The notes under the pieces were generated by a model that saw only the letters and a program-made list of their open reading frames with translations, ran no database searches and was not told the origin of the DNA. The position numbers and the translations under genes were made by a program. Positions 25,073 to 64,000 of a stretch of 64,000 bases of DNA are shown piece by piece. The number at the start of each line of letters is the position of its first letter. Positions within the stretch are counted from its first letter, which is position 1. The stretch is from positions 62,001 to 126,000 of the forward strand of contig JAJFIA010000010.1 in NCBI GenBank assembly GCA_021775255.1. The letters are read 5' to 3'. The DNA comes from Roseovarius sp. GTDB lineage: Bacteria > Pseudomonadota > Alphaproteobacteria > Rhodobacterales > Rhodobacteraceae.

Positions 25073-25134
25073 GCCCCGGCGCAAGGCCGGGGCAGCCAAT
25101 TCTTGCGCAAACCACCGCCTGAAAAGGGCGGTGG
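25073..25134 (+). terminator. two adjacent hairpins after potD
   Basis: GCCCCGGC/GCCGGGGC (25073-25093, 5-base loop) and CCACCGCC/GGCGGTGG (25112-25134) lie between potD and the aminotransferase. Neither has a T-run, so they may be mRNA-stabilising stems or partial attenuation of the downstream gene more than full terminators. Confidence 0.45.
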
Positions 25135-49872: not shown

Positions 49873-50929
49873 GTTGAGCGCTCTTTTTTTCAAATCGGGC
49901 AATTTGTGCTTGTGTCACGGCCCACATATCCGCATTTTCCGCATGTGATTTATACCATTCCACCGAAGCGAAGATCGCATCACTGAGATGCCATTTAGGG
50001 GCCCAGCCAAGCTCGGCGCGGGATTTTGCACTTTCGAGTGAAAGCAACTTCTCTTCAAATATCCCTGATTTCCGTTCAACCCGCACTTCGGCCTCCTCTC
50101 CCCAGGCCTGTACCAACTGGCGGGCGACATTTTCAACAGGCTGGCAATCTTCTGCTGCCGGTCCAAAATTCCACCCCCCCGGACAGGTTGTTCCCTCTTC
50201 TGCAAGGCGCTTTGCCAGAGTCAGATATCCGGGCAATGGATCAAGAACATGCTGCCATGGCCGGGTGGATTGTGGGTTGCGCAAGATTAGCGGCGCGCCT
50301 GCTGCAAAACTGCGGATGGCATCCGGCAACAAGCGGTTGGCAGCCCAGTCACCTCCACCGATGATATTGCCCACACGCAGGGCTGCGATCCCAAGGTCAG
50401 GAAAATAGCTGTTGGCATAGGCGGTAATTACGTGCTCGCTTGCAGCTTTGCTTGCGCTGTAGGGCTCTTGCCCACCCAATGGATCATTTTCGCGGTATGG
50501 CCAATGCCAGTTGTTGTTTTGGTAAACCTTGTCGGTGGTGACCAGCAACATCGCCATCAGGCCTTCCAGTTTCCGGGCTGCCTGCATGACATTGACGGTG
50601 CCCATCACATTGGTTTCAAAAGTCTCGATTGGATCAGCATAGGCAGTTAAAACCAATGGCTGCGCCGCCAGATGAAAAATCACTTCAGGCCGTGCATCGG
50701 ACATAGCCGCAGATAAGGCAGGAAGATTTCGGACATCCCCAATGGTTGACGCAAACAGCCTTTTGCCCAGAGAAACCGCTTCAAAAAAGGAGGGTTTGGT
50801 CGGTGGGGTTGTTGCATAGCCTGATACGATCGCACCTTTGGTCAACAGATAGCTGCACAGCCAGCCCCCCATGAAACCCGTGTGCCCAGTGACGAATACG
50901 CGCCGATTTTGCCACCAGTTATCTGCCAT
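49862..50929 (-). CDS. rfbG: CDP-glucose 4,6-dehydratase
   Basis: 355 aa from the ATG at 50929, whose A is the last base of the rfbF stop. RfbG fold: WWQNRRVFVTGHTGFMGGWL, DVRN, FHLAAQPLVLTAYADP, active-site DKVYQN and YSASKAASE, and RPWQHVLDPLPGYL. Makes CDP-4-keto-6-deoxyglucose from CDP-glucose. Confidence 0.93.
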   Translation of the reverse strand: MADNWWQNRRVFVTGHTGFMGGWLCSYLLTKGAIVSGYATTPPTKPSFFEAVSLGKRLFASTIGDVRNLPALSAAMSDARPEVIFHLAAQPLVLTAYADPIETFETNVMGTVNVMQAARKLEGLMAMLLVTTDKVYQNNNWHWPYRENDPLGGQEPYSASKAASEHVITAYANSYFPDLGIAALRVGNIIGGGDWAANRLLPDAIRSFAAGAPLILRNPQSTRPWQHVLDPLPGYLTLAKRLAEEGTTCPGGWNFGPAAEDCQPVENVARQLVQAWGEEAEVRVERKSGIFEEKLLSLESAKSRAELGWAPKWHLSDAIFASVEWYKSHAENADMWAVTQAQIARFEKKSAQHGQ

Positions 50930-51705
50930 TACCAGAGTTTCCATGGCGCGTTGCCGGATTGCCAATAGCCTTCCAGCAGGTTCATTTCTCGCTGTGTATC
51001 CATGCATTGCCAGAAGCCGGTATGGCGATAGACGCTCAGCTCTCCGGCTTCGGAAAGCTGTTGCAGGACACCTTCCTCAAGGGGGATGTCTTGGGCATCT
51101 GACAGGGATTCGAATATGCTCTTGCTGAAAACAAAAAAACCGCCGTTGATCCAGCCGGCTCCTGTCTGGGGTTTTTCCGTAAACGAGGAAACCACATCCC
51201 CATCAAGGGCAAGCTCGCCAAAACGCGAGGACGGGCGCACAGCAACCACGGTGGCAAGCTTGCCGGCATCATGGTGATGCGCGATTACCGCATTGATATC
51301 GACATTGCCGACACCATCGCCATAGGTAGCCAGAAATATATCGTCATCAATATGGCGGATCGCCCGTTTCAGGCGTGATCCTGTCAGGGTCCGGACGCCC
51401 GTATCCTGAATACGGATTTTCCAGGGCAAGAGTTCTTCGGTTGTCTCCAGGCGTGAAACCGTGGCTGTTTTCAGATCAATTTCAATATCCTGGCTGTTGT
51501 TATGGTAGTTCAGGAAATACTGCTTGATCACATCACCCTTGTAGCCGGTACAGAGGACAAAATCATTATGGCCGAATTGACTGTACCCTCTCATGATGTG
51601 CCACAGGATCGGTTTGTGCCCGATCTCGACCATGGGCTTTGGCTTCAGTTCGGTTTCTTCCCGAATACGTGTACCCAACCCGCCACAAAGGATTGCAACT
51701 TGCAT
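50929..51705 (-). CDS. rfbF: glucose-1-phosphate cytidylyltransferase
   Basis: 258 aa from the ATG at 51705. Nucleotidyltransferase: AILCGGLGTRIREETELKPKPMVEIG, catalytic metal Asp in YGDGVGNVD, and the typical FWQCMDTQREMNLLE ending. Makes CDP-glucose, the first step of the CDP-hexose branch. Confidence 0.93.
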   Translation of the reverse strand: MQVAILCGGLGTRIREETELKPKPMVEIGHKPILWHIMRGYSQFGHNDFVLCTGYKGDVIKQYFLNYHNNSQDIEIDLKTATVSRLETTEELLPWKIRIQDTGVRTLTGSRLKRAIRHIDDDIFLATYGDGVGNVDINAVIAHHHDAGKLATVVAVRPSSRFGELALDGDVVSSFTEKPQTGAGWINGGFFVFSKSIFESLSDAQDIPLEEGVLQQLSEAGELSVYRHTGFWQCMDTQREMNLLEGYWQSGNAPWKLW

Positions 51706-51736
51706 GTATTTTTGCCCTCTCGCCGTCTTGCCGCCG

Positions 51737-52732
51737 TTAATGCTGGTGCTTGGCGACCTGTTCATCATTCACGCCACTGGCTTCCATATCGCGATCCTGA
51801 TCAGGATCAATCAGATAAAGCGGCCGGCCCTTTGCTTCATTATATATGCGCCCGACATAGAGCCCGACGATTCCGAGGGTCAAAAGCTGCACACCACTCA
51901 GGAAGGATAAGAACAGCATGGTTGAAGCCCAGCCCGAAACCATGGAACCGCCAAGCAACCACCCTACAAAGACAAAAATTGCTGCAGCAAATGACCCTAA
52001 TGCAACCGTCAGGCCAAACCAAAGGGCCATGCGCAACGGCACATCTGAAAACCCAAGTATACCGTTGGCAGCAAGCCTGAGCATTGCCGCCATGGGATAT
52101 TTCGTGGTGCCGGCGGCCCGCTCCTGCCGTTCAAACATGACCTGGGTCTGGCGAAAACCAACCCAGCTTACCATGCCCCGGAAATAACGATCCTGCTCGG
52201 GCATGGCATTAAGAACATCTGCAACTTTGCGGTCAATCAAACGGAAATCGCCAACATCACGCGGAATATCTATCGGTGTCATCTTTGACAGGATACGGTA
52301 ATAAAGGCTTGCGGTGAACCGCTTGAAAAGACCTTCCCCTTTGCGCCGCACACGTTTGGCGGACACCACATCATAACCTTCCCGCCATTTTGTGATCATA
52401 TCAAGCGCCACTTCCGGCGGATCCTGCAAATCAGCATCCATGATAATGATGGCGTCTCCTCTTGCTTGTGCAACACCGGCGGTGATCGCGATCTGGTGGC
52501 CAAAATTGCGTGACAGGTTGATCAGATGATAGGGCCTGCTCGCCGCGTTTTTGGTAATCAACTGTGATGTGCGATCAGTGCTTCCATCATTGACAAAAAC
52601 CACATTGGTATCTGCATCGATATGTTCGAAAATCGCATCGAGCCGTGCAACGAGCTGCGGAATGACCGCCTCCTCGTTGTAGACAGGGATCACAAAGCTT
52701 ATAGAGTTTTTGCCTGGCCGCTCAGAAGTCAT
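51737..52732 (-). CDS. GtrB/DPM1-like polyprenyl-phosphate glycosyltransferase
   Basis: 331 aa. GT2 domain at residues about 10-230 (SFVIPVYNEEAVIPQLVARL, DADLQDPPE as the metal motif), then two C-terminal membrane helices. This arrangement is that of GtrB/ArnC-like enzymes that load a sugar on undecaprenyl phosphate. First gene of the long leftward block, a probable partner for the GtrA-like and ArnT-like genes at its end. Confidence 0.88.
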   Translation of the reverse strand: MTSERPGKNSISFVIPVYNEEAVIPQLVARLDAIFEHIDADTNVVFVNDGSTDRTSQLITKNAASRPYHLINLSRNFGHQIAITAGVAQARGDAIIIMDADLQDPPEVALDMITKWREGYDVVSAKRVRRKGEGLFKRFTASLYYRILSKMTPIDIPRDVGDFRLIDRKVADVLNAMPEQDRYFRGMVSWVGFRQTQVMFERQERAAGTTKYPMAAMLRLAANGILGFSDVPLRMALWFGLTVALGSFAAAIFVFVGWLLGGSMVSGWASTMLFLSFLSGVQLLTLGIVGLYVGRIYNEAKGRPLYLIDPDQDRDMEASGVNDEQVAKHQH

Positions 52733-52969
52733 TAAGCCCCTATAAATTATCTATAATGATTAGTTTCATTTGCTGCTACATCGGTATGAGTAGCCAAAAA
52801 TCGTGGGTGTAGCTACTACTTATTGGCCGACTTATTGGCCAATAATACCAAAAATGCATGATACGCGGAGGGTCATGCCAATCTGAATGACACGTCTTTG
52901 TCATAAGGCTATGAAAAGGCATGAAGAATAAATACGCACAGCATTCCCGCATTTCTGACAAGAAAACCC

Positions 52970-53232
52970 CATGAGATTGTCAGCTATTTTGCCACCGTTC
53001 TGACAGTGCTCGAGACGGATAAGTTTTCCGGATTAAATCGCACTATTGTCAACTATTGCATGGCAGCGCATGTTTACATGCTCAGGAGGGCGTTTTACCG
53101 CGCCTTTTCGGGTGCGGAACCTATGGCAAAACCGTTATCTTCGGTGTGTTCAAACTGATGACACAACTGAGCGGTGATAAAATGGTGGCTTACTTTGCTG
53201 ATATGTTGGCCAAAAATCATCCTATGACATGA
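52970..53232 (+). pseudogene. decayed IS1595-type transposase fragment
   Basis: One frame reads DKFSGLNRTIVNYCMAAHVY (about 53016 onward), which resembles the helix-turn-helix of IS1595/ISXO2 transposases (KLSGLNRNTVNRY). About 60 bases later another frame reads GCGTYGKTVIFGVFK, matching their RGRGAxGKTxVFGxxKR segment, so a frameshift separates the two. The catalytic DDE/N residues and inverted ends are not found. It lies next to tRNA-Arg at the edge of the polysaccharide block. Confidence 0.6.
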
Positions 53233-53256
53233 TAACAAAGGAGAATAAGTAATGCC

Positions 53257-53333
53257 TGGCGATCCCGGGAGGACTCGAACCCCCAACATCCTGCTTAGAA
53301 GGCAGGTGCTCTATCCAGTTGAGCTACGGGACC
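53257..53333 (-). tRNA. tRNA-Arg (anticodon TCT)
   Basis: 77 bases. Acceptor GGTCCCG/CGGGATC, D arm TAGCTCAACTGGATAGAGCA, anticodon loop CTTCTAA (TCT), TpsiC GGGTTCGAGTCC and encoded CCA. Confidence 0.93.
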
Positions 53334-53370
53334 GCTTGGATGCGCTCTTTACCCTGCACATGAGGCAAGA

Positions 53371-54150
53371 TCAAAGCAAATTCGCAGCAAACGGATCCTC
53401 AGGATACCCCACCCCAGCCAGATAAAGCCCCTGCGGTGGACAGACCGGGCCACAGGCGGCGCGATCCCTGGCTTGCAGGGCGGTTTTCACATCATCGGGT
53501 GCCCAGGCACCGGTGCCCACGCGCTCCAACGTGCCGATAAAACTGCGCACCTGATTGTGCAGGAACGAGCGCGCCCTGATATGAAAATGCGCCTCAGGCC
53601 CCCAGCAGGTTTCAACCGCTTCAATTTCCAGCGCATCCAAGGTTTTCACCGGGCTTGCCGCCTGACAGATCGACGAGCGGAAAGTAGTGAAATCATGCTT
53701 GCCTATCAGGTGTTGTGCACCTTCGCGCATCGCCGCCAAATCCAATTCATGCGGCACCTGCCAGACCAGCCCGCGCTGATGCGTGGCCGGGGCGCGCCGC
53801 ATCAACAGGCGAAAGAAATAGCGCCGCTCAAGGGCGGAAAAACGCGCGTGCCAGTCATCTTCCACCTGCGCGCAGGCCATGATCGCCACTGGATCAGGCT
53901 TGAGATGATAATTCAGCGCCTCTGACAGGCGAAACGCATCCCAGTCTTTTGCCAGATCACACTGCGCCACCTGCCCCAAAGCATGCACGCCTGTATCGGT
54001 GCGCCCGGCGGCGGCAATGCTGTGGTCGCCGGGCTCAAGCTTTACCAAAGCTGCCTCAATCGCGCCCTGCACCGTGGGCAGATCAACCTGCCGCTGCCAG
54101 CCGCGAAACGGCGCGCCGTGGTATTCAACTTTGAGGGCATATCTGGGCAT
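53371..54150 (-). CDS. truA: tRNA pseudouridine(38-40) synthase
   Basis: 259 aa, normal length. N-terminal [18 protein letters not shown], catalytic Asp in [14 protein letters not shown], and C-terminal [17 protein letters not shown]. Modifies the anticodon arm of tRNAs in the cytoplasm. Confidence 0.93.
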
Positions 54151-54261
54151 ATCCAGCCCATAAACTTTTGCAGGCAGGGGAACAATCCCCCAAAGCTCCC
54201 CTCTGGCAAGTGGGCGGCTGCATGTCTATCATGAGGCTAGAAGCATTGAAGGGGCCATATT

Positions 54262-55677
54262 TTGGCGATTGTTAATCTGGCTGACGGGCTGACGCGGGGG
54301 ATTGAAACCGCAGGAAACGCTATCTCGAAAGCGCTGTTTGAGCCGGTGATCCGTTTGGGCGTGACCGGTCTTGCGCGCTCGGGCAAGACGGTGTTCATCA
54401 CTTCGCTGGTGGCCAATCTGCTTGAGCGGGGCCGAATGCCGGGGCTTCTGGCCGCCTCTGAAGGACGTATTGAGGCGGCGTATCTGCAACCACAGCCCGA
54501 TGATACTGTGCCGCGGTTTGAGTATGAGGCGCATCTTGGCGCGTTGACAGGCCCCACGCCGCATTGGCCCGAAAGCACCCGCGCCGTTTCGCAATTACGG
54601 CTGTCGCTTCGGGTCCGCCCTGCGGGGTTGCTTTCAGGTCTGACCGGCCCGCGCACCCTTCATCTTGATATTGTGGATTACCCCGGTGAATGGCTTCTGG
54701 ATCTGGGGCTTTTGGATAAATCCTTTACTGAGTGGTCGGCGCAGGTGCTTGAGCGCATCGCCCATCGCCCGCAAGCCGCTGATTATCTGGAACAGGTGGA
54801 AAACACAGACCCGGCAGCCCGGCTTGACGAACCGGTTGCGCAATCTTTGGCGCAAGGTTTCACCGCTTATCTGCATGCTGCCCGCGATGCCGGGTTTTAT
54901 GATTGCACCCCCGGTCGGTTCCTACTGCCCGGTGATCTGGCGGGTTCACCGGTGCTGACATTCGCGCCTTTGCCATCTGTTGATATGCCTTCCCGAAGAT
55001 CCCTCTGGCGTGAGATGCAGCGCCGGTATGAGGCTTATAAAGCCAAGGTTATAAGGCCGTTTTTCAAGGATCATTTTGCCCGGATAGACCGGCAGGTCGT
55101 GCTGGTGGATGTGTTGGATGCCCTGCATCAGGGGCCGCAGGCGTTTGATGATATGCGCCGTGCCATGGCGGATCTTCTGTCGGTGTTCCGCCCCGGCCGC
55201 AATGCGTTTCTGACCCGTCTTTTGCAAGGCCGCCGGGTGGATAAAATCCTTTTTGCCGCCACCAAGGCCGATCATTTGCACCATTCTCAACACGACCGGC
55301 TTACGGCGATCATCACAGCCCTGACACGGGATGCAAAAGAACGCGCGCTCTTTGCCGGGGCAGGCACCCATGCCATGGCCATTGCCGCCCTGCGCACCAC
55401 CGTCGAGGAAACCATGACGTATCAGGGGCGGGTGCTTGATTGTGTGCGCGGCACGGTTCTGGAAACCGGGGCACAGGCAGCGTTTCATGCCGGTGAGTTG
55501 CCGAACGATCCGCAAACATTGCTGTCAGCGGCGCAAGATGCCGGGCAAAACTGGCCCGATATGCAATTTCAGGCAACGGCATTTGCCCCGGCAAAACTTG
55601 CCCTCAAACCGGGCGACGGCCCGCCGCATATCCGGCTAGATCAGGCGGCGCAATTTCTGATCGGAGACCGGCTGTGA
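54262..55677 (+). CDS. YcjX family GTPase-like protein
   Basis: 471 aa from a TTG at 54262; no in-frame ATG precedes it. DUF463/YcjX family with a Walker A-like GVTGLARSGKTVFIT and the switch-like LDIVDYPGEWLLDL. YcjX is stress induced in E. coli; role unclear. Followed 25 bases later by the YcjF-like gene, the usual pair. Confidence 0.85.
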   Translation: MAIVNLADGLTRGIETAGNAISKALFEPVIRLGVTGLARSGKTVFITSLVANLLERGRMPGLLAASEGRIEAAYLQPQPDDTVPRFEYEAHLGALTGPTPHWPESTRAVSQLRLSLRVRPAGLLSGLTGPRTLHLDIVDYPGEWLLDLGLLDKSFTEWSAQVLERIAHRPQAADYLEQVENTDPAARLDEPVAQSLAQGFTAYLHAARDAGFYDCTPGRFLLPGDLAGSPVLTFAPLPSVDMPSRRSLWREMQRRYEAYKAKVIRPFFKDHFARIDRQVVLVDVLDALHQGPQAFDDMRRAMADLLSVFRPGRNAFLTRLLQGRRVDKILFAATKADHLHHSQHDRLTAIITALTRDAKERALFAGAGTHAMAIAALRTTVEETMTYQGRVLDCVRGTVLETGAQAAFHAGELPNDPQTLLSAAQDAGQNWPDMQFQATAFAPAKLALKPGDGPPHIRLDQAAQFLIGDRL

Positions 55678-55702
55678 GGGTTTTGAACAATGAGGTAAGG
55701 AT

Positions 55703-56698
55703 ATGACAAAAGGCCCGGTTTTGATTGATCTGGAAGGTGCCACCCCGGCTGCAACACCCGATCAGGCCCCGCCGGTGCCCGATAGCACTATGGCCCCGCC
55801 CCCCGAAGGCCGCGCGATGCTTGTGCTTGCCCGGCTGGCGGCGCGAAAACCATCACTTCTGGCGCGGCTTTTCTGGTCTTTGCTGGGGGCGCTTGTTGGC
55901 GTGGCCGTGTCGGTCATGGCATGGGATTTTGTCACCGGCCTGATCCAGCGGTCGCTGGTGCTTGGCTATCTGGTCACTGGCCTGATGGCTGTTTTTGGTC
56001 TGGTTTTGCTGGTGATTATCCTGCGTGAGCTAGCGGCATTCGCCCGCCTTGAGCGGATTGACAGCCTGCACCATGCCGCATCCGAGGCACTGGCGGGGCA
56101 GGATATTGACGCCGCCCGTGGCGTCATGGCGCGCCTCACCCGGCTTTATCGCCGCCGCGATGATATGAAATGGAGCCTTGAACGCTTGGCAGAGATGGCT
56201 CCGGATCAGTTTGACGCCCCGGCCCTGCTGGGCCTTGCCGAAGCTGAGCTATTGGGGCCGCTGGATGCGGCGGCCACCCAAGAGGTTGAGGCTGCCGCAC
56301 GTCAGGTGGCCACGGTAACGGCGCTGGTGCCATTGGCGCTGGCGGATGTGGTGGCGGCCCTCACGGCCAATATCCGCATGATCCGCCGCGTGGCAATGAT
56401 TTACGGCGGGCGTTCCGGCACGCTTGGAAGCTGGCGGCTGATCCGTGCGGTGATGGCGCATCTGGTGGCCACGGGGGCGGTGGCAATTGGCGATGATCTC
56501 ATTGGCTCGGTCGCGGGGGGCAGCGTGTTATCCAAACTCTCACGCCGGTTCGGCGAAGGCGTGGTCAACGGCGCATTGACTGCGCGCGTTGGTGTGGCGG
56601 CAATGGAGGTTTGCCGACCCTTGCCGTTTACGCGGTTAAAACGGCCTTCGGTTACAGGGCTGGTCAAGCGGGCATTGACCGGGTTGTTTAATAAGTAG
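55703..56698 (+). CDS. YcjF-like (TIGR01620/DUF697) membrane protein
   Basis: 331 aa. Two membrane helices at about 50-115 (SLLGALVGVAVSVMAWDF, LVTGLMAVFGLVLLVIILR) and a C-terminal DUF697 region (IYGGRSGTLGSWRLIRAVMAHL). Pairs with YcjX; function unknown. Confidence 0.83.
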   Translation: MTKGPVLIDLEGATPAATPDQAPPVPDSTMAPPPEGRAMLVLARLAARKPSLLARLFWSLLGALVGVAVSVMAWDFVTGLIQRSLVLGYLVTGLMAVFGLVLLVIILRELAAFARLERIDSLHHAASEALAGQDIDAARGVMARLTRLYRRRDDMKWSLERLAEMAPDQFDAPALLGLAEAELLGPLDAAATQEVEAAARQVATVTALVPLALADVVAALTANIRMIRRVAMIYGGRSGTLGSWRLIRAVMAHLVATGAVAIGDDLIGSVAGGSVLSKLSRRFGEGVVNGALTARVGVAAMEVCRPLPFTRLKRPSVTGLVKRALTGLFNK

Positions 56699-56755
56699 GG
56701 TGGGTGAAACCCACGCGCCTTAATCTCAAAAACCTAAACTTAACGAGGAAAGAAT

Positions 56756-57271
56756 ATGTTCATCAAAGACTATGCAACTTTAATGGCCAAATATAATCTT
56801 TGGCAAAACGAAAACCTTCTCACGGCAACAGATACCCTGACCGATGCAGAGCGCCAAAAAGACAGGGGTTCATTTTTCGGCTCTATTCAGAACACCTTTT
56901 CACATATCTTCTGGGGTGACCAGATTTGGCTTAGCCGGTTTGCCGGCACAACCGCACCGTCGGGAGGAATTGCCGAATCCCTGGCTCTTGCAGAAGATTG
57001 GCCCGCCTACCGTAGCGCGCGAAAAACTTTTGATCAGCGTATTTTACAATGGGCGAATGAGGTCTCACCGGACTGGTTTGAAGGCGATTTGAAATGGTAT
57101 TCCGGCGCGATTGGCCGCGATATTACCAAGCCCAAAAACATGCTTGTGGTGCAGCTTTTCAACCACCAGACCCACCACCGCGGACAAATTCATGCCATGC
57201 TCACCGCAGCGGGGGCGAAGCCCGACGATACCGACGTGCCCTTCATGCCCGAGAGTTATTTAAATATGTGA
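56756..57271 (+). CDS. DinB family protein
   Basis: 171 aa four-helix bundle. The metal-binding His pattern is visible: HIFWGDQIW near residue 45 and NHQTHHRGQIHAM near 135. DinB-fold proteins include thiol-dependent transferases; the exact role is not known. Own ribosome binding site GAGGAAAG. Confidence 0.83.
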   Translation: MFIKDYATLMAKYNLWQNENLLTATDTLTDAERQKDRGSFFGSIQNTFSHIFWGDQIWLSRFAGTTAPSGGIAESLALAEDWPAYRSARKTFDQRILQWANEVSPDWFEGDLKWYSGAIGRDITKPKNMLVVQLFNHQTHHRGQIHAMLTAAGAKPDDTDVPFMPESYLNM

Positions 57272-57301
57272 TGATGGGCACGCCGCAAATGGGCCGGGGC
57301 A

Positions 57302-57712
57302 TCAGCTCAGTTTCGGCACCCCGCCAGGCAGGGTATTCCTATCAACCACCCCCGCCCTGAGAGAGCGCCCGATGCGGTGCGCCAGTTCCGACCACGCGCG
57401 CGCCTGATCCGGCCTCAACCCCGCTTTCAGCACCGTATCGAACAAATCAAGCCAGACCGAAAACATTCCCGGCCGCACATTGCCTGCCTGGATATGCACT
57501 GCCATCGGATTGCCGTCATAACTGCGCTCATGCAAGATTGCACTGGCCCAGAACCGCGCGATTTTCGCCTCATGCGCAGGCCAATCGGTGATATGTTTGG
57601 CAAATACAGGCCCCAGAACGCCATGCGCGCGGATTTGCGCATAAAACGCGGCCACAACCCGTTCGATCTCGGGGCGGGTGATGTCAAACTTGGGGGGCAA
57701 GGCGTTGCTCAT
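57302..57712 (-). CDS. group III truncated haemoglobin
   Basis: 136 aa from the ATG at 57712. PPKFDITRPEIERVVAAFYAQIR, then FWASAILHERSYDGNPMAVHI with the proximal His region of trHbO/P-type (group III) globins. Likely binds O2 or NO. The open frame upstream is not homologous. Confidence 0.8.
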   Translation of the reverse strand: MSNALPPKFDITRPEIERVVAAFYAQIRAHGVLGPVFAKHITDWPAHEAKIARFWASAILHERSYDGNPMAVHIQAGNVRPGMFSVWLDLFDTVLKAGLRPDQARAWSELAHRIGRSLRAGVVDRNTLPGGVPKLS

Positions 57713-57953
57713 GCCCTCTATTTGGCCCGGTCTGCGCACCCATGCAAGCCCGCCTTTTGCTGCACCCCCGGATTGTCCTCTGGACGCGGGCAAAACCCCG
57801 GCTTATAACGCGCGGCATGACACGCATATTGGCGATCATTATTCGAATTATATGCCCGACGCTCTGATAAATCCGAGCCGTCGGGACAAGGCGTATGAAT
57901 GTCCGCGCCGCCCCAGCAAATTCATCTGAACCGCATGATAAAGGACGCCTCCT

Positions 57954-60908
57954 ATGTGCGCCGAAACGCCCGATTACAAAGACACCCTGACCCTGCCGGT
58001 CACCGATTTTCCGATGCGCGCGGGCCTGCCCAAACGCGAGCCTGAATGGCTGGAGCGTTGGAACCGCATCGGCATCTATGACCGTCTGCGGGAAAAACCA
58101 ACCCGCAAAAGCTTTACCCTGCATGACGGCCCGCCCTATGCCAATGGTCATCTGCATATTGGTCATGCCTTGAATAAAATCCTCAAGGATATGGTGGTGC
58201 GCAGCCAACAGATGATGGGCCGCGATTCGCGCTATATCCCCGGCTGGGATTGTCACGGGTTGCCGATTGAATGGAAGATCGAAGAGCAATACCGTGGGAA
58301 GGGCAAAGACAAGGATAGCGTGCCGATCAATGAGCTGCGCGGCGAGTGCCGCAAATTCGCCGAGGGCTGGGTGGATATTCAGCGCGAGGAATTCAAGCGG
58401 CTGGGGGTGACCGGCAACTGGGACAATCCGTATAAAACGATGGATTATACCTCCGAGGCGGTGATTGCCGAGGAATTCATGAAGTTCGTGATGAATGGCA
58501 GCCTCTATCGCGGCTCCAAGCCGGTGATGTGGTCGCCGGTTGAGAAAACCGCTTTGGCCGAGGCGGAAGTGGAATATCACGACAAGGAAAGTTTCACGAT
58601 TTGGGTGAAGTTTGCTGTCAGGCGCCCCGGACCCCGATCCGGGGCCTCGACCAGTGTGGAGATCCCGGGTCAGGCCCGGGATGGGGAGGATGATCTTCAG
58701 GGTGCCTATGTTGTCATCTGGACAACCACCCCTTGGACTCTCCCATCAAACAAAGCTGTCGTTTACGGCGAAAACTTTGCTTACGGCCTCTACGAAGTCA
58801 CTTCCACACCTGATGAAAGCTGGGCCAATGTCGGCGACAGGTTCATTTTGGCGGACAAGCTGGCGGGGGGCGTCATGACCCGCGCCCGGCTTGAGAGCGG
58901 CATGTATAAACGGGTGCGCGATGTGACGGTGGAGGAGCTTTCAAGCCTCTCGCTGCAACATCCCCTTGCGGGTGCTGAAGGCGGCAACGGCGAATGGGAC
59001 GACCTGCGTGATTTCCGGGCCGCCGATTTCGTCACCGACGAGGAAGGCACAGGCTTCGTGCATTGCGCGCCCTCCCACGGCATGGAGGAGTTTGAGCTTT
59101 ACCGCGATCTGGGCATGCTCAAGCAGGTGATCACCTATAATGTCATGGAAGATGGCTCTTTCCGCGAAAGCCTGCCGTTTTTTGGCGGCAAAATGATCCT
59201 CAAGCCCAACGGCAAGGAGGGCGATGCCAACAAGGCCGTGATTGACAAGCTGGCCGAGGTGGGCGGCCTTCTGGCGCGCGGCAAGATCAAGCACAGCTAC
59301 CCGCATTCATGGCGCTCCAAGGCACCGGTGATCTACCGCAACACCCCGCAATGGTTTGTCGAGATTGACCGCGAATTGCAGGACGGTATGGATCAGCACG
59401 GCAAAACCATCCGGGAGCGGGCGTTGAATGAGATTGACCGTGTGAAATGGACGCCGAAAACCGGCCGTAACCGTTTGTATTCGATGATTGAATCACGCCC
59501 CGATTGGGTGATGAGTCGGCAACGCGCCTGGGGTGTGCCTTTGACCTGTTTCATCCGCGATGCGGGCGAGGGGCAGGTAGAGCTTTTGCGCGATAAGGCT
59601 GTGAATGCCCGGATTGCCGAGGTGTTTCGCGTCGAGGGTGCCGATGCGTGGTTTGCGAAAGGCGCGCGCGAGCGGTTTTTGGGGGCTGAACTGGCCAAAG
59701 AAGACTGGCAGCTTGTCAGTGACATCCTTGATGTGTGGTTTGATTCAGGTTCAACCCACGCCTTTGTGCTGCGCGACCGCCCGGATGGGGCCGAAGACGG
59801 TATCGCCGATCTTTACCTTGAAGGCACCGATCAGCATCGCGGCTGGTTTCATTCAAGCCTGCTGCAAAGCTGCGGCACCAATGGCCGCGCGCCCTATCGG
59901 GGTGTTTTGACCCATGGGTTTACGCTTGATGCCAAGGGCAACAAGATGTCGAAATCTCTGGGCAATACCATCGTGCCCGCCGAGGTGACCAAGCAATATG
60001 GTGCCGATATTCTGCGGCTTTGGGTGGCGCAGGTTGATTTCACCGCTGATCAGCGCATCGGGCCGGAAATCCTCAAGAATGTCGCCGACAGTTACCGGCG
60101 TTTGCGCAATACCATGCGCTTCATGCTGGGGTCTTTGGCGCATTTCGATGCGGCAGACCGGGTGGCTCCTTCTGAGATGCCCGAGCTGGAACGCTGGGTG
60201 CTGCACCGTCTGGCGGAACTCGACCACAAAGTGCGCACCGGCTATGCGGCTTATGATTTTCAGGGCGTGTTTCAGGCGCTCTTCCAGTTTGCCACGGTGG
60301 ACCTTTCGGCGTTCTATTTCGATATCCGCAAGGATGCGCTTTATTGCGACAAGGGCAGCCTCAACCAACGCGCGGCTTTGACTGTGCTGGACATGCTGCA
60401 TGAGAGGCTGACCGCATGGCTTGCGCCCATTCTGGTGTTCACCATGGAGGAGGTCTGGCTTGAGCGCCATCCCGGTGCGGATAACTCGCTGCATCTTGGG
60501 GATTTCCCCGACACCCCCGCCGATTGGCTGGATGAGCCACTTGCGGCCAAATGGGCGCAGGTGCGGCAGGCGCGGCGCGCGGTTACGGCGGCGCTGGAAG
60601 TGCAGCGCATTGACAAGGTGATCGGGGCCTCGCTTGAGGCGGCCCCGGTGGTGCATGTGCGCGAAAAGGATCTGTTGGTTATTCTAAAATCAGTGGATTT
60701 TGACGATATCTGCATCACCTCCAGCGTCTCTTTAACCGGTGATCCAAGCCCTGATGAGGCCTTTCGCCTGCCCGAAGTGGATGGCATTGGCGTGGTATTC
60801 GAGGTGGCAGAGGGCGCAAAATGTCAGCGCTGCTGGAAAATTCTGCCCGATGTGGGCACGCATAAGCACGCAAGCACTTGCGCCCGCTGCGATGAGGCGC
60901 TTGGATAG
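57954..60908 (+). CDS. ileS: isoleucyl-tRNA synthetase
   Basis: 984 aa class I synthetase. HIGH motif in ANGHLHIGHAL, KMSKS at residue 664, the CP1 editing domain between (WTTTPWTLPSNKAV), and a C-terminal zinc finger (CQRCWKI ... CARCDE). Slightly long: residues about 220-246 are encoded by an inserted palindromic repeat and look unlike the family. Standalone gene. Confidence 0.93.
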   Translation: MCAETPDYKDTLTLPVTDFPMRAGLPKREPEWLERWNRIGIYDRLREKPTRKSFTLHDGPPYANGHLHIGHALNKILKDMVVRSQQMMGRDSRYIPGWDCHGLPIEWKIEEQYRGKGKDKDSVPINELRGECRKFAEGWVDIQREEFKRLGVTGNWDNPYKTMDYTSEAVIAEEFMKFVMNGSLYRGSKPVMWSPVEKTALAEAEVEYHDKESFTIWVKFAVRRPGPRSGASTSVEIPGQARDGEDDLQGAYVVIWTTTPWTLPSNKAVVYGENFAYGLYEVTSTPDESWANVGDRFILADKLAGGVMTRARLESGMYKRVRDVTVEELSSLSLQHPLAGAEGGNGEWDDLRDFRAADFVTDEEGTGFVHCAPSHGMEEFELYRDLGMLKQVITYNVMEDGSFRESLPFFGGKMILKPNGKEGDANKAVIDKLAEVGGLLARGKIKHSYPHSWRSKAPVIYRNTPQWFVEIDRELQDGMDQHGKTIRERALNEIDRVKWTPKTGRNRLYSMIESRPDWVMSRQRAWGVPLTCFIRDAGEGQVELLRDKAVNARIAEVFRVEGADAWFAKGARERFLGAELAKEDWQLVSDILDVWFDSGSTHAFVLRDRPDGAEDGIADLYLEGTDQHRGWFHSSLLQSCGTNGRAPYRGVLTHGFTLDAKGNKMSKSLGNTIVPAEVTKQYGADILRLWVAQVDFTADQRIGPEILKNVADSYRRLRNTMRFMLGSLAHFDAADRVAPSEMPELERWVLHRLAELDHKVRTGYAAYDFQGVFQALFQFATVDLSAFYFDIRKDALYCDKGSLNQRAALTVLDMLHERLTAWLAPILVFTMEEVWLERHPGADNSLHLGDFPDTPADWLDEPLAAKWAQVRQARRAVTAALEVQRIDKVIGASLEAAPVVHVREKDLLVILKSVDFDDICITSSVSLTGDPSPDEAFRLPEVDGIGVVFEVAEGAKCQRCWKILPDVGTHKHASTCARCDEALG
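58623..58682 (+). repeat. palindromic repeat inserted in frame in ileS
   Basis: Two adjacent stem-loops: CCCCGGA/TCCGGGG (58625-58631, 58638-58644) and TCCCGGG/CCCGGGA (58663-58669, 58675-58681). Translated as low-complexity sequence near PGPRSGASTS and IPGQARDGE, in the CP1 domain at the surface. The first half is nearly identical to the element at 63800. Typical of small palindromic repeats that invade alphaproteobacterial genes. Confidence 0.7.
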
Positions 60909-60952
60909 GCGCGCAGGGGCCGCCCTGCGCTTAACCGGCAGGGAGGCCCGCC

Positions 60953-62113
60953 ATGTCTGATCTGAGCAACCGCAAGCTTTCGCTGACCACCCGCGTAGCG
61001 CAGGCGCTGCATTTTCTTGACGCGGATACCGGCGCGGTGATCCCGCCGATTCAGCCCACCTCCACCTATGCACGCGACGCCGATTATGCGCCGCGCCAAA
61101 GTTACATTTACCGGCGTGACAGCAATCAGACCACAGAACTGGCCGAGCGGATCATAGCCGAGCTTGAAGGCGCTGAAAGCGCGCTTCTTTTTGCCTCGGG
61201 CATGTCGGCGGCCACGGCGGTGATTGATCAGTTGCCAGCGGGCGCGCATGTGGTGGTGCCGGATGTGATGTATCACGGGGTTTTGCAGCAATTTCAGATG
61301 TATGCGGCCAGAAACCGGCTGGATGTCAGCACTTATGCCGCGGGCAATCTTGATGATATGGCCGCCGCCTTGCGCAAAGGCGAAACCGCGCTGGTCTGGG
61401 TTGAGACGCCGAATAATCCTGACTGGACGGTCACCGATATTCGCGCCGCCGCTGACATTACGCACGCCGCAGGTGCGCGGCTTTTGACCGATTGCACCGG
61501 CACGCCGCCCTGCGCCACGAAGGCGCTGGAGCATGGCGCGGATATATCATTTCATTCCGCCACCAAATATCTCAACGGCCACTCGGATGTGACCGCCGGG
61601 GTCTTGTCCAGCAACGACACCGGCCCGCTATGGGAGGCGATATACGAGCGCCGCAAATTGCAGGGCACGGTGCTGCACTCCTTCGATGCCTGGCTGCTCA
61701 TTCGCGGCATGCGCACGCTTTTCCTGCGGGTTGAGAAGGCGACGCAGAATGCGTTGGCGATTGCCCGGCATTTTGAGGGCCACAAGGGGCTTGAGGCGGT
61801 GCTCTATCCCGGCCTGCCTTCGCATCCCGGCCATGCAATCGCCAAAAAGCAGACCGGCGGGCTTTATGGCGGCATGATGTCGATCATCGTTGCGGGTACG
61901 GAACAAACGGCGATTGATGTCACGCGCCATGCCAAGGTGTTTTATCCGGCCACATCTTTGGGCGGGGTTGAAAGCCTGATCGAGCACCGCAAGACCGTCT
62001 CGGGCGAGGGGTTTCCGGTGCACCCCAGGCTGTTGCGCCTGTCGATCGGGATCGAGGATGCGGATGATCTGATCTATGATCTGGAACAGGCGCTTGCCCA
62101 TGCGCAGGGCTGA
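60953..62113 (+). CDS. Cys/Met metabolism PLP enzyme (cystathionine gamma-synthase family)
   Basis: 386 aa. PIQPTSTYARD start, PLP-phosphate region LFASGMSAATAV, VWVETPNNP and Schiff-base Lys in FHSATKYLNGHSDVTAG. The family covers cystathionine gamma-synthase, beta- and gamma-lyases and homocysteine synthases; sequence alone does not fix which. Starts 44 bases after ileS. Confidence 0.83.
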   Translation: MSDLSNRKLSLTTRVAQALHFLDADTGAVIPPIQPTSTYARDADYAPRQSYIYRRDSNQTTELAERIIAELEGAESALLFASGMSAATAVIDQLPAGAHVVVPDVMYHGVLQQFQMYAARNRLDVSTYAAGNLDDMAAALRKGETALVWVETPNNPDWTVTDIRAAADITHAAGARLLTDCTGTPPCATKALEHGADISFHSATKYLNGHSDVTAGVLSSNDTGPLWEAIYERRKLQGTVLHSFDAWLLIRGMRTLFLRVEKATQNALAIARHFEGHKGLEAVLYPGLPSHPGHAIAKKQTGGLYGGMMSIIVAGTEQTAIDVTRHAKVFYPATSLGGVESLIEHRKTVSGEGFPVHPRLLRLSIGIEDADDLIYDLEQALAHAQG

Positions 62114-62164
62114 TCCACAAGCGATGCAACCTCAGATCACGCCTCAGCCCGGCTCTGATAGGCC

Positions 62165-63787
62165 CTAATCCGATGATCGAAGCCTTGAGCGCTGAACCAT
62201 GAACACCATGATCAGCGGCAGGCCAACGGTAAACGCTGTCACGGCCAGCAAAAGCCATCCAAGATGCGCGTAATCCGCGGCTACGTTGATGCTGCCGCTG
62301 GCCACATCGCGCACTTCGCGGGTGATCTCGAATATCTGGTTGAGGTATTTGGTCAAAAGTGCGCTGGCCGATAATGCCAGATTGGTGAACGAGGCCATGA
62401 CCGCAAAAAACGTGGCCTTGAGATGCGTCGGCGCATTGCGGGCAATCCAGGCCAGCATCGGGATCATCGCCACCTGCCCCAGAGGCGATTCAACCGCCGT
62501 ATCAATAATGGCGATAAAGCGCGCATCCACAATGCCGCCGGTCAGCGGCGCGGTCCAGTTCTGGATACCGTAATACAGCCCGATATTTGGCAGGGATAAA
62601 ATACCGGCCGCCAATGTCAGCATCACCACGATCCAGATGATCGAATGCCGCGCCATCATCGGCCGCAGGATCACCATGCCTATGAGCGTCAGCACCGCCA
62701 CGATCAGTGACAGCACTGACAGAAACTGCTGATCAAATCCCAGCACATCAATTTCAAACCACGTCAGGCCCGGGCCGGGCAGGGGCGTGGCGCGAAAGGC
62801 AAAGATGATCAAAGCCGTGCCCACCAGGCTGCGCGCCTGCGCCGGTGTGAGGGCGGCAATCAACTGTCGCATCATCAGCAGGACAATCGCCATCGAGCCG
62901 GTGAAGATAATTTCCTGGCCAAAGCGGATATCCGACAGCCCGATCATGAGCGTCAGGGCAACAAATCCGGCACCGCCAATGAAATACCATGGGTTGAGTA
63001 CGGTCTTTTCATCGGTTTGTCCGGAGATCGCAATGTCCAGCCCACGCCGCCGTAAATCCCTCAGAACCTTGCGCTTTTGCACCCCGGCCAGCACGATGCC
63101 CGAAACCGACAAGAGCGGAATGCCAAGCGCCAGCAGATAAATCCGCGCATAGATATGCGCCTTGTCGGCCTCCCCCATGCTTTCAATACCCGAAAACATA
63201 TAGATATTCAGCAACGCCACCATGACCGAGCCACTGATCAGGGCGATCCGGCCAAGGGTTTGCATGGTGGTATGCATGGCTTTTTGCGTGTCTTCCGGTA
63301 ATGGCGCGCCGGAGCGGTCAATCTTTGGCACTGCCTCAACCGACATGGCATCCGCCACGGCATCCTGAATCACCAGCCCGCTGGGGGCGATCAGAAGGGA
63401 GGCGATATACCAGCTGTTGGCCGACATAATGCCTTCCATCATCGCGCGCTGCATCACCAGCAGATACATGATGAACATGCTAAGCCCCACCATCGCGGCC
63501 CCAAGCCAGACCAGAAGCCATTTCCAGCGCCAGATGATATCAACCAGATGCCCCAGTGGCATTTTCAGCGCCCAGGGAATCCCGGCCCAAAACGCCAGCC
63601 CGGCAAGGGTGGCGGCGGACAGATCAAGGTAATCCTTCACGAAAAATGTGCCGACAATCGCCGTCAGCCCGGAAAACCCAAAGGCAAAATAGATCATCAA
63701 GGGCGGCAGAAAGGACCAGCGTACCTGCCGCGCCAGATCAAAGATGATGGCATCAATCCAGCGGTTGAGACGACTATTGAGCGTCAT
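62165..63787 (-). CDS. BT1/PucC-like major facilitator family transporter
   Basis: 540 aa from the ATG at 63787; the frame reads on to 63946 but only through the palindromic repeat. About twelve to thirteen membrane helices, beginning WSFLPPLMIYFAFGFSGL, and resembling the folate-biopterin transporter (BT1) branch. Substrate unknown. The ribosome binding site is weak (GGGCG). Confidence 0.68.
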   Translation of the reverse strand: MTLNSRLNRWIDAIIFDLARQVRWSFLPPLMIYFAFGFSGLTAIVGTFFVKDYLDLSAATLAGLAFWAGIPWALKMPLGHLVDIIWRWKWLLVWLGAAMVGLSMFIMYLLVMQRAMMEGIMSANSWYIASLLIAPSGLVIQDAVADAMSVEAVPKIDRSGAPLPEDTQKAMHTTMQTLGRIALISGSVMVALLNIYMFSGIESMGEADKAHIYARIYLLALGIPLLSVSGIVLAGVQKRKVLRDLRRRGLDIAISGQTDEKTVLNPWYFIGGAGFVALTLMIGLSDIRFGQEIIFTGSMAIVLLMMRQLIAALTPAQARSLVGTALIIFAFRATPLPGPGLTWFEIDVLGFDQQFLSVLSLIVAVLTLIGMVILRPMMARHSIIWIVVMLTLAAGILSLPNIGLYYGIQNWTAPLTGGIVDARFIAIIDTAVESPLGQVAMIPMLAWIARNAPTHLKATFFAVMASFTNLALSASALLTKYLNQIFEITREVRDVASGSINVAADYAHLGWLLLAVTAFTVGLPLIMVFMVQRSRLRSSD

Positions 63788-63799
63788 GCCATACGCCCA

Positions 63800-63863
63800 C
63801 GCCCCGGCCCCCGAGCCGGGGCCTCTTGGCCGGGCGGGAGGCCCCGGCTCGGGGGCCGGGGCG
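63800..63863 (-). repeat. 26-bp perfect inverted repeat
   Basis: Arms 63800-63825 and 63838-63863 pair perfectly around a 12-base loop. The arms contain GCCCCGGCCCCCGAGCCGG and continue GGCCT, close to the first arm of the ileS insert. It lies between the arsC stop and the transporter start, 13 bases upstream of the latter. As RNA it would be a very stable stem-loop able to act as terminator or block the start. Confidence 0.85.
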
Positions 63864-63881
63864 CGGGGGTGTTTGCCGCCT

Positions 63882-64000
63882 TCACAAGATATCCAAAACC
63901 GCCGCGGGCGGGCGGCCCAATGCGGCGCGGCCATGGGCAAAGACAATCGGGCGCTCGATCAAAATCGGGTGCGCGGCCATGGCGGCAATCAGCGCGTCGT
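63882..64000 (-). CDS. arsC: arsenate reductase (glutaredoxin-type), 3' part only
   Basis: The last 38 residues, cut by the window edge. They read DALIAAMAAHPILIERPIV followed by FAHGRAALGRPPAAVLDIL, the C-terminal signature of ArsC/YffB-type glutaredoxin-like arsenate reductases (LIERPIV ... GRPPE). The catalytic Cys is outside. Its stop lies about 20 bases from the 26-bp inverted repeat. Confidence 0.8.
   Translation of the reverse strand, partial: DALIAAMAAHPILIERPIVFAHGRAALGRPPAAVLDIL

Follow-up and report, generated by a model that had tools for sequence, protein, structure and literature searches.

The isoleucyl-tRNA synthetase gene (ileS; positions 57954–60908, + strand) of Roseovarius sp. 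encodes a protein of 984 amino acids with the Pfam domains tRNA-synt_1, Anticodon_1 and zf-FPG_IleRS. Its nearest named IleS records, at most about 80% identical, come from Roseovarius and other roseobacters. Within this open reading frame, 60 bases (58623–58682), exactly 20 codons, fold into two hairpins and are translated as RPGPRSGASTSVEIPGQARD (residues 224–243). The locus thus raises the question of how a palindromic repeat came to be in frame in an essential enzyme, and whether it entered this gene once or repeatedly. We addressed the question from the 64,000-nt stretch of DNA that contains the gene (hereafter the window), the rest of the genome, and the genomes of relatives.

Both hairpins are inverted repeats with 8-bp arms. 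Hairpin 1 (GCCCCGGA/TCCGGGGC; 58624–58645) has a loop of 6 nt (type B), hairpin 2 (ATCCCGGG/CCCGGGAT; 58662–58682) has one of 5 nt (type A), and the spacer between the two is 16 nt long (58646–58661). The window holds a second copy, a B-B dimer at 63793–63870 just upstream of a BT1/MFS gene (minus strand), with its hairpins at 63801–63822 and 63841–63862. Hairpin 1 and the hairpin at 63801–63822 are identical at 20 of 22 bases, with both differences on one stem pair, in agreement with the resemblance pointed out in the initial annotation. A covariance model, R1, was built from 16 aligned copies of the own genome, with the copy at 63793–63870 (53.4 bits) among them and the ileS copy excluded; the hairpin arms covary among these copies, 5 of the 20 consensus pairs having changes at both bases in one copy or another. 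The ileS element matched R1 with 70 bits on the + strand and 61.4 bits on the − strand (E of 7.5e-11 in the genome and 1.5e-12 in the window). A weak single-hairpin match to R1 was also noticed at 25073–25093 (19.9 bits, E 0.015), and no Rfam family matched over the element when the window from 50000 to 64000 was searched at E ≤ 1. The folding energy of the ileS stretch is not unusual for a stretch so rich in GC (+ strand: z of −1.05, equalled by 30 of 200 shuffles), so that the case rests on the family match, not on the stability of the hairpins. Chance hairpins were considered and ruled out by the match to R1 together with the control outside the loops: in 103 ileS genes, no pair of 8-bp hairpins within 45 nt was found in the 297,156 bases that lie outside the loop, nor was one found in 54,125 bases of valS flanks, and the same scan inside the loops found two pairs in ileS and four in valS.

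A BLAST search with the ileS insert yielded 44 matches in the own genome. R1 detected at least 42 distinct places at E ≤ 0.001 and at least 51 at E ≤ 0.1 (strands merged), both being lower bounds, as the best 150 of 4037 first-look candidates were scored. The ileS element is a real, amplified, REP-like palindrome residing in frame in an essential enzyme, and the initial annotation, which took it for a mobile or amplified repeat family, was largely right. The stem measures 8 bp in 73 of 83 units, the loop 5 nt (type A) in 48 and 6 nt (type B) in 28, and the hairpins, 21–22 nt long, carry CTC tails and face inward in dimers. Among 50 dimers of the own genome, the ileS copy excluded, 15 were AA, 12 AB, 7 BB and 16 not classed. 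Based on gene calls with codon scores trained on 27 open reading frames of the window, 25 of 51 copies lie between co-directional genes, 17 between convergent and 2 between divergent ones, 1 at a contig end and 6 in a called reading frame (adjacent gene pairs of the window, a rough background, are co-directional in 32 cases, convergent in 9 and divergent in 8). A flanking gene 3′ end was available for 42 copies: 31 were located 8–39 nt from it, 5 overlapped the called end and 6 were further off. The family extends beyond this genome, with matches to R1 at E ≤ 0.001 under stricter filters in at least 30 of 60 genomes, own included. In a relative (G012:C36:73920-74091), three matches 45 nt apart form a small tandem cluster. 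As for a protein that could move such repeats, the Y1 (RAYT-type) transposase domain PF01797 had no match in the own genome, and the search of 12 genomes, own included, retrieved a single broken fragment.

The six copies in called reading frames were those in ileS, valS, ftsY and a pdhB-like gene, the copy at 63.8 kb, which was likely counted through an over-long start of the reading frame, and one in a doubtful frame of 84 amino acids. The valS copy (E 0.0024 with R1) was accepted on account of two perfect family hairpins and not on its score, and the candidate copy in ftsY (E 0.068) consists of two hairpin-like halves in the N-terminal linker. The linker of the pdhB-like gene contains two perfect hairpins in the own genome, and its length of 59 is within the 54–69 of the 11 relative loci, of 29, that were readable; thus, insertion is unproven there. 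A half element in nrdJ (L030) was examined as a recent insertion in the own lineage and rejected, because 6 of the 18 readable relatives share the length of 47 and similar residues; the linker was readable in 19 of 27 loci, own included, and has 36–47 residues there, and a perfect 8-bp hairpin was found in none of the readable loci, own included. During this survey, we also came across two class II ribonucleotide reductase genes (G011:C8:199917-203312 and G015:C24:9368-12556) that seem to be interrupted in frame after query residue 199 by about 1.1 kb, with open frames of 1222 and 1183 amino acids; judged by sequence, the interruption looks like an intein.

Whether copies move was assessed with 40 stretches of the closely related genomes G012, G006 and G035, which were chosen around copies and hence lean to shared ones. 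We used 46 of 55 distinct places, the remaining 9 being weak (E of 1.1e-5 to 8.9e-4). For 12 of the 25 elements of G012, both flanks were located in a stretch of a sister; 10 of these elements were shared and 2 were missing from the sister. One missing case is a second copy adjoining a shared copy. In the other, the two sites differ in length by about 113 nt, which exceeds the element; no target duplication was seen, and the difference could represent a deletion in G006. Copy number thus changes between near relatives, and the copies probably spread by a transposition-like process. The initial annotation called the element mobile; presence and absence between near relatives speak for this part of the description, but neither a transposase nor a target-site duplication was found to go with it.

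We then compared IleS across relatives. The stretch after EYHD and before WTTTPW spans 24–63 residues and was readable in 107 of 110 loci (L116, L052 and L130 were dropped for unreadable loops). The insert is absent from the IleS of close relatives, and the reverse pattern, all relatives bearing the same residues on non-repetitive DNA, was looked for and did not appear. Five of the 107 loci have the element, and these belong to three species, namely the own genome, G012 (with the same loop as Roseovarius sp. MMSF_3350) and G008 (whose loop is that of uncultured Roseovarius sp. 1064-G). In 394 genomes of the family (393 genera; a draw containing neither G008 nor G012), a strict pattern, which would miss decayed hairpins, had 3 matches: the own genome, G151 and G433. 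Altogether, the carriers amount to five species (G000, which is the own genome, G008, G012, G151 and G433). Each of the five inserts is a B-A dimer, and all have the same orientation and frame, encode peptides of the form PGxxxG[AV]S...E[VI]P[GD]Q[AV]RD, and keep their hairpins paired with at most 1 mismatch per 8 pairs of a hairpin. Their spacers are 16, 16, 16, 13 and 13 nt long; in the 12 other B-A copies of the own genome, the spacer is 18 nt in 11 and 42 nt in the pdhB-like gene. The three frames of these own B-A dimers are open in 11, 10 and 11 of 12, respectively, so the single frame in ileS was not forced by stop codons and may reflect selection at the protein level.

Loops of other kinds occur at the same place. 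That of G024:C1:704544-707556 reads VVTPRPGLED and is perhaps a remnant of a deleted element; a further match to R1 begins 14 nt past the ileS match in this genome. Long loops without resemblance to the element are common to distant genera (L054, L055, L129, L032 and L042; L086, L101 and L081; L114, L138 and L123), and the DPxxGxG...NRDL type is likewise patchy and found in distant genera. The patchy distribution of such non-palindromic types suggests that exchange or repeated loss takes place at the ileS loop besides palindrome insertion.

Valyl-tRNA synthetase offers a second series. We examined a variable loop in 21 valS loci, one from the own genome and 20 from relatives: hairpins of at least 7 bp occur there in pairs in five loci and singly in two. 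Hairpins of the own family were identified in the loops of L197, L220 and L225. The loop of L217 combines an own-type hairpin with a TCCTCGGG hairpin preceded by CGTCA, and that of L223 has two TCCTCGGG hairpins. The loop of L209 (G006) harbors a third kind of palindrome, the sisters G012 and G035 having a short loop, and the one hairpin of L214 matched no named kind. We note that the second palindrome family in L217 and L223, TCCTCGGGCTCGACCCGAGGA preceded by CGTCA, is coded as SSSGSTRGP and DPRVEPED. A valS pattern matched 7 of the 394 genomes (1 of 394 in the reversed control), and five of the matches are in the valS loop (own genome, G151, G250, G385 and G405); those of G274 and G410 lie outside the loop and were set aside. 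The five loops present three dimer orders, A-B, B-A and A-A. The frame in which the first hairpin is read varies among valS loops, and the arm of the second type is always read as xPxQxxx. For the four rows with an own-type hairpin, no more than two changes are required by the starred branches of the valS tree; thus, independence in valS rests on the different orders and families. In all, at least three kinds of palindrome, in varying order, occupy this loop. With ileS and valS together, the proposal of the initial annotation that the repeat tolerates insertion inside proteins holds for two enzymes.

To place the family among described repeats, we consulted PMC3733652, PMC3767692, PMC2229807 and PMC12306157. 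The CGTC REPs described by Di Nocera et al. (2013; PMC3733652) are alike in forming dimers that include hetero-pairs, and in being mostly alphaproteobacterial, near gene 3′ ends and with no dedicated transposase. The present family shares the location of dimers near gene 3′ ends and the lack of a transposase (Y1 being the type sought). It differs in the tag, with 0 CGTC, 0 TGTC and 2 CCTC in 75 own units; the three sister genomes have 6 CGTC and 2 TGTC in 71 units, all eight on AT stems. It differs also in that AT at the stem foot, a CGTC-REP trait, was seen in 3 of 75 own units. In stems and loops the picture is mixed: CGTC REPs have stems of 8–9 bp and loops of 4–5 nt (8-bp stems and 5-nt loops in most units), which fits the stem in 73 and the loop in 48 of our 83 units, but the 6-nt loop of type B is found in 28. 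None of the seven Rhodobacterales name stems looked for occurs in the main text of PMC3733652. The same article reports some CGTC REPs inside genes, including those for tRNA synthetases, and, in Xanthomonas, a case of two recB genes with a REP at roughly the same position. The GTAG REPs with a RAYT transposase likewise consist of short palindromes, paired head to head and located close to the ends of genes (PMC3733652), but no PF01797 protein is present in the own genome, and GTAG is absent among the 14 commonest foot tetramers listed. The CIR (CerM-associated) repeats of Caulobacter and Brucella are alphaproteobacterial with two stem loops; in contrast to our element, they are described in PMC2229807 as having stops in all six frames and as not found inside genes. 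The Rickettsia palindromic elements, to which the initial annotation likened the repeat, similarly lie in frame within conserved genes, where they occupy exposed parts and, in some cases, the same place in orthologues (PMC3767692), but they are 100–150 bp long and their hosts are intracellular (PMC3767692, PMC2229807). As an analogy the comparison fits, through the in-frame copies in ileS and valS. Our literature search, in main texts, turned up no report of elements of this kind in the ileS or valS of roseobacters. Intragenic REPs as such have been described; what is new here is the host group, the single frame in ileS and, in each of two enzymes, the repeated use of a single loop.

We consider it probable that non-autonomous REP-like dimers were inserted repeatedly into two permissive loops, one in IleRS and one in ValRS. 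The reading draws directly on family membership, in-frame insertion, absence from a near sister, scattered occurrence and the several families in the valS loop, and it takes the five ileS cases as separate insertions. It is weighed down by the uniformity of these cases, since one orientation, one frame and spacers of 16 or 13 nt (18 in 11 of the 12 other own B-A copies) are not what free random insertion predicts; the missing Y1 transposase, the empty site that is shorter by about 113 nt, the patchy loops of other types, the valS tree and the nrdJ half element were counted against it as well. The shared frame and order would follow simply if all five inserts were inherited from one old insertion in ileS, either ancestral and lost many times or spread by short-tract recombination among roseobacters, and the patchiness of loops such as the DPxxGxG...NRDL type in distant genera fits this rival. 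We nevertheless regard a single old insertion as unlikely. In a quick tree built from 105 IleS proteins after excision of the loop, in which the own row sits on a long branch, the five carriers are scattered and the starred branches force at least 5 changes; a tree with the carriers as one clade was rejected (log-likelihood lower by 316, p-AU 0.000193). The IleS of G012 is 97% identical to that of G035, a sister lacking the insert. The left flank of the G012 insert is that of the insert-free sisters up to the junction (89/90 identical bases to G006 and 88/90 to G035; 80/90 and 84/90 on the right), and 75 nt separate the flanks in G012 versus 9 nt in G006 and G035. Moreover, the residues at both junctions differ among inserts, and one insertion would not give the different dimer orders and palindrome families of the valS loop. 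Similarity among the elements does not decide between one and many, because the ileS inserts are not clearly nearer to intergenic copies: against 96 copies from four genomes, a set without the genomic copies of G008, G151 and G433, the inserts of G433 and G151 were nearest to intergenic copies, those of G000 and G008 were tied, and that of G012 was nearest to the insert of G433.

The left junction of the G012 insert (L033) bears an 11-bp perfect native palindrome, TCGCCGTGGCC/GGCCACGGCGA, which is shorter and imperfect in the sisters and probably arose by template switching. It is scarcely credible that the hairpins themselves arose, or were kept, in place by such switching during replication (palindrome correction) with no arriving copy: they match a dispersed family in tails and loops, and local switching gives no family consensus. 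Selection for a function, such as a pair of mRNA hairpins tuning ileS expression or a peptide tuning editing or tRNA binding, would account for the intact pairing of all five inserts and their one frame; yet 102 of the 107 ileS loci do without the element, and the loop varies widely in length and content. Structure was counted against this explanation as well. The solved IleRS 8c9e has 18 residues fewer at the place of the insert in the alignment. An AlphaFold model puts the insert between strands 214–223 and 252–257, with pLDDT below 50 at residues 227–245; the model is poor (mean pLDDT 63, rmsd of about 17 Å to the solved IleRS) and was used for the loop only. We thus find a selected function quite improbable, if not to the same degree as in-place origin, and the loop is presumably exposed and neutral, with the enzyme working despite the insert.

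Under repeated insertion, one copy of the palindromic dimer, which is amplified in this Roseovarius-like genome chiefly just past gene ends, would have landed in IleRS where the CP1 editing domain begins, in a hypervariable loop. With hydrophilic residues encoded by the open frames of the element, and with a loop in which nearly any sequence is tolerated, the copy would have survived in a working enzyme, and separate insertions would have followed in other lineages, at the same loop of IleRS and at the variable loop of ValRS. For same-site palindromes in Rickettsia, the choice between a hotspot and a common origin was left open (PMC3767692); the question of hotspot or old insertion is testable here, since near-identical sisters differ in whether they have the insert and one loop is used by multiple families. 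The two editing enzymes provide a natural insertion series, and essential proteins may go on gaining new segments from repeats of this sort. As a tentative extension, which we put at somewhat less than even, the loops of IleRS and ValRS, two related essential enzymes, may throughout a bacterial family be recurrent landing sites for several kinds of palindrome, with a filter at IleRS that passes one orientation and frame and so yields convergent peptides of 18–20 residues. If so, selfish DNA would repeatedly supply proteins with new sequence, subject to a filter that can be measured.
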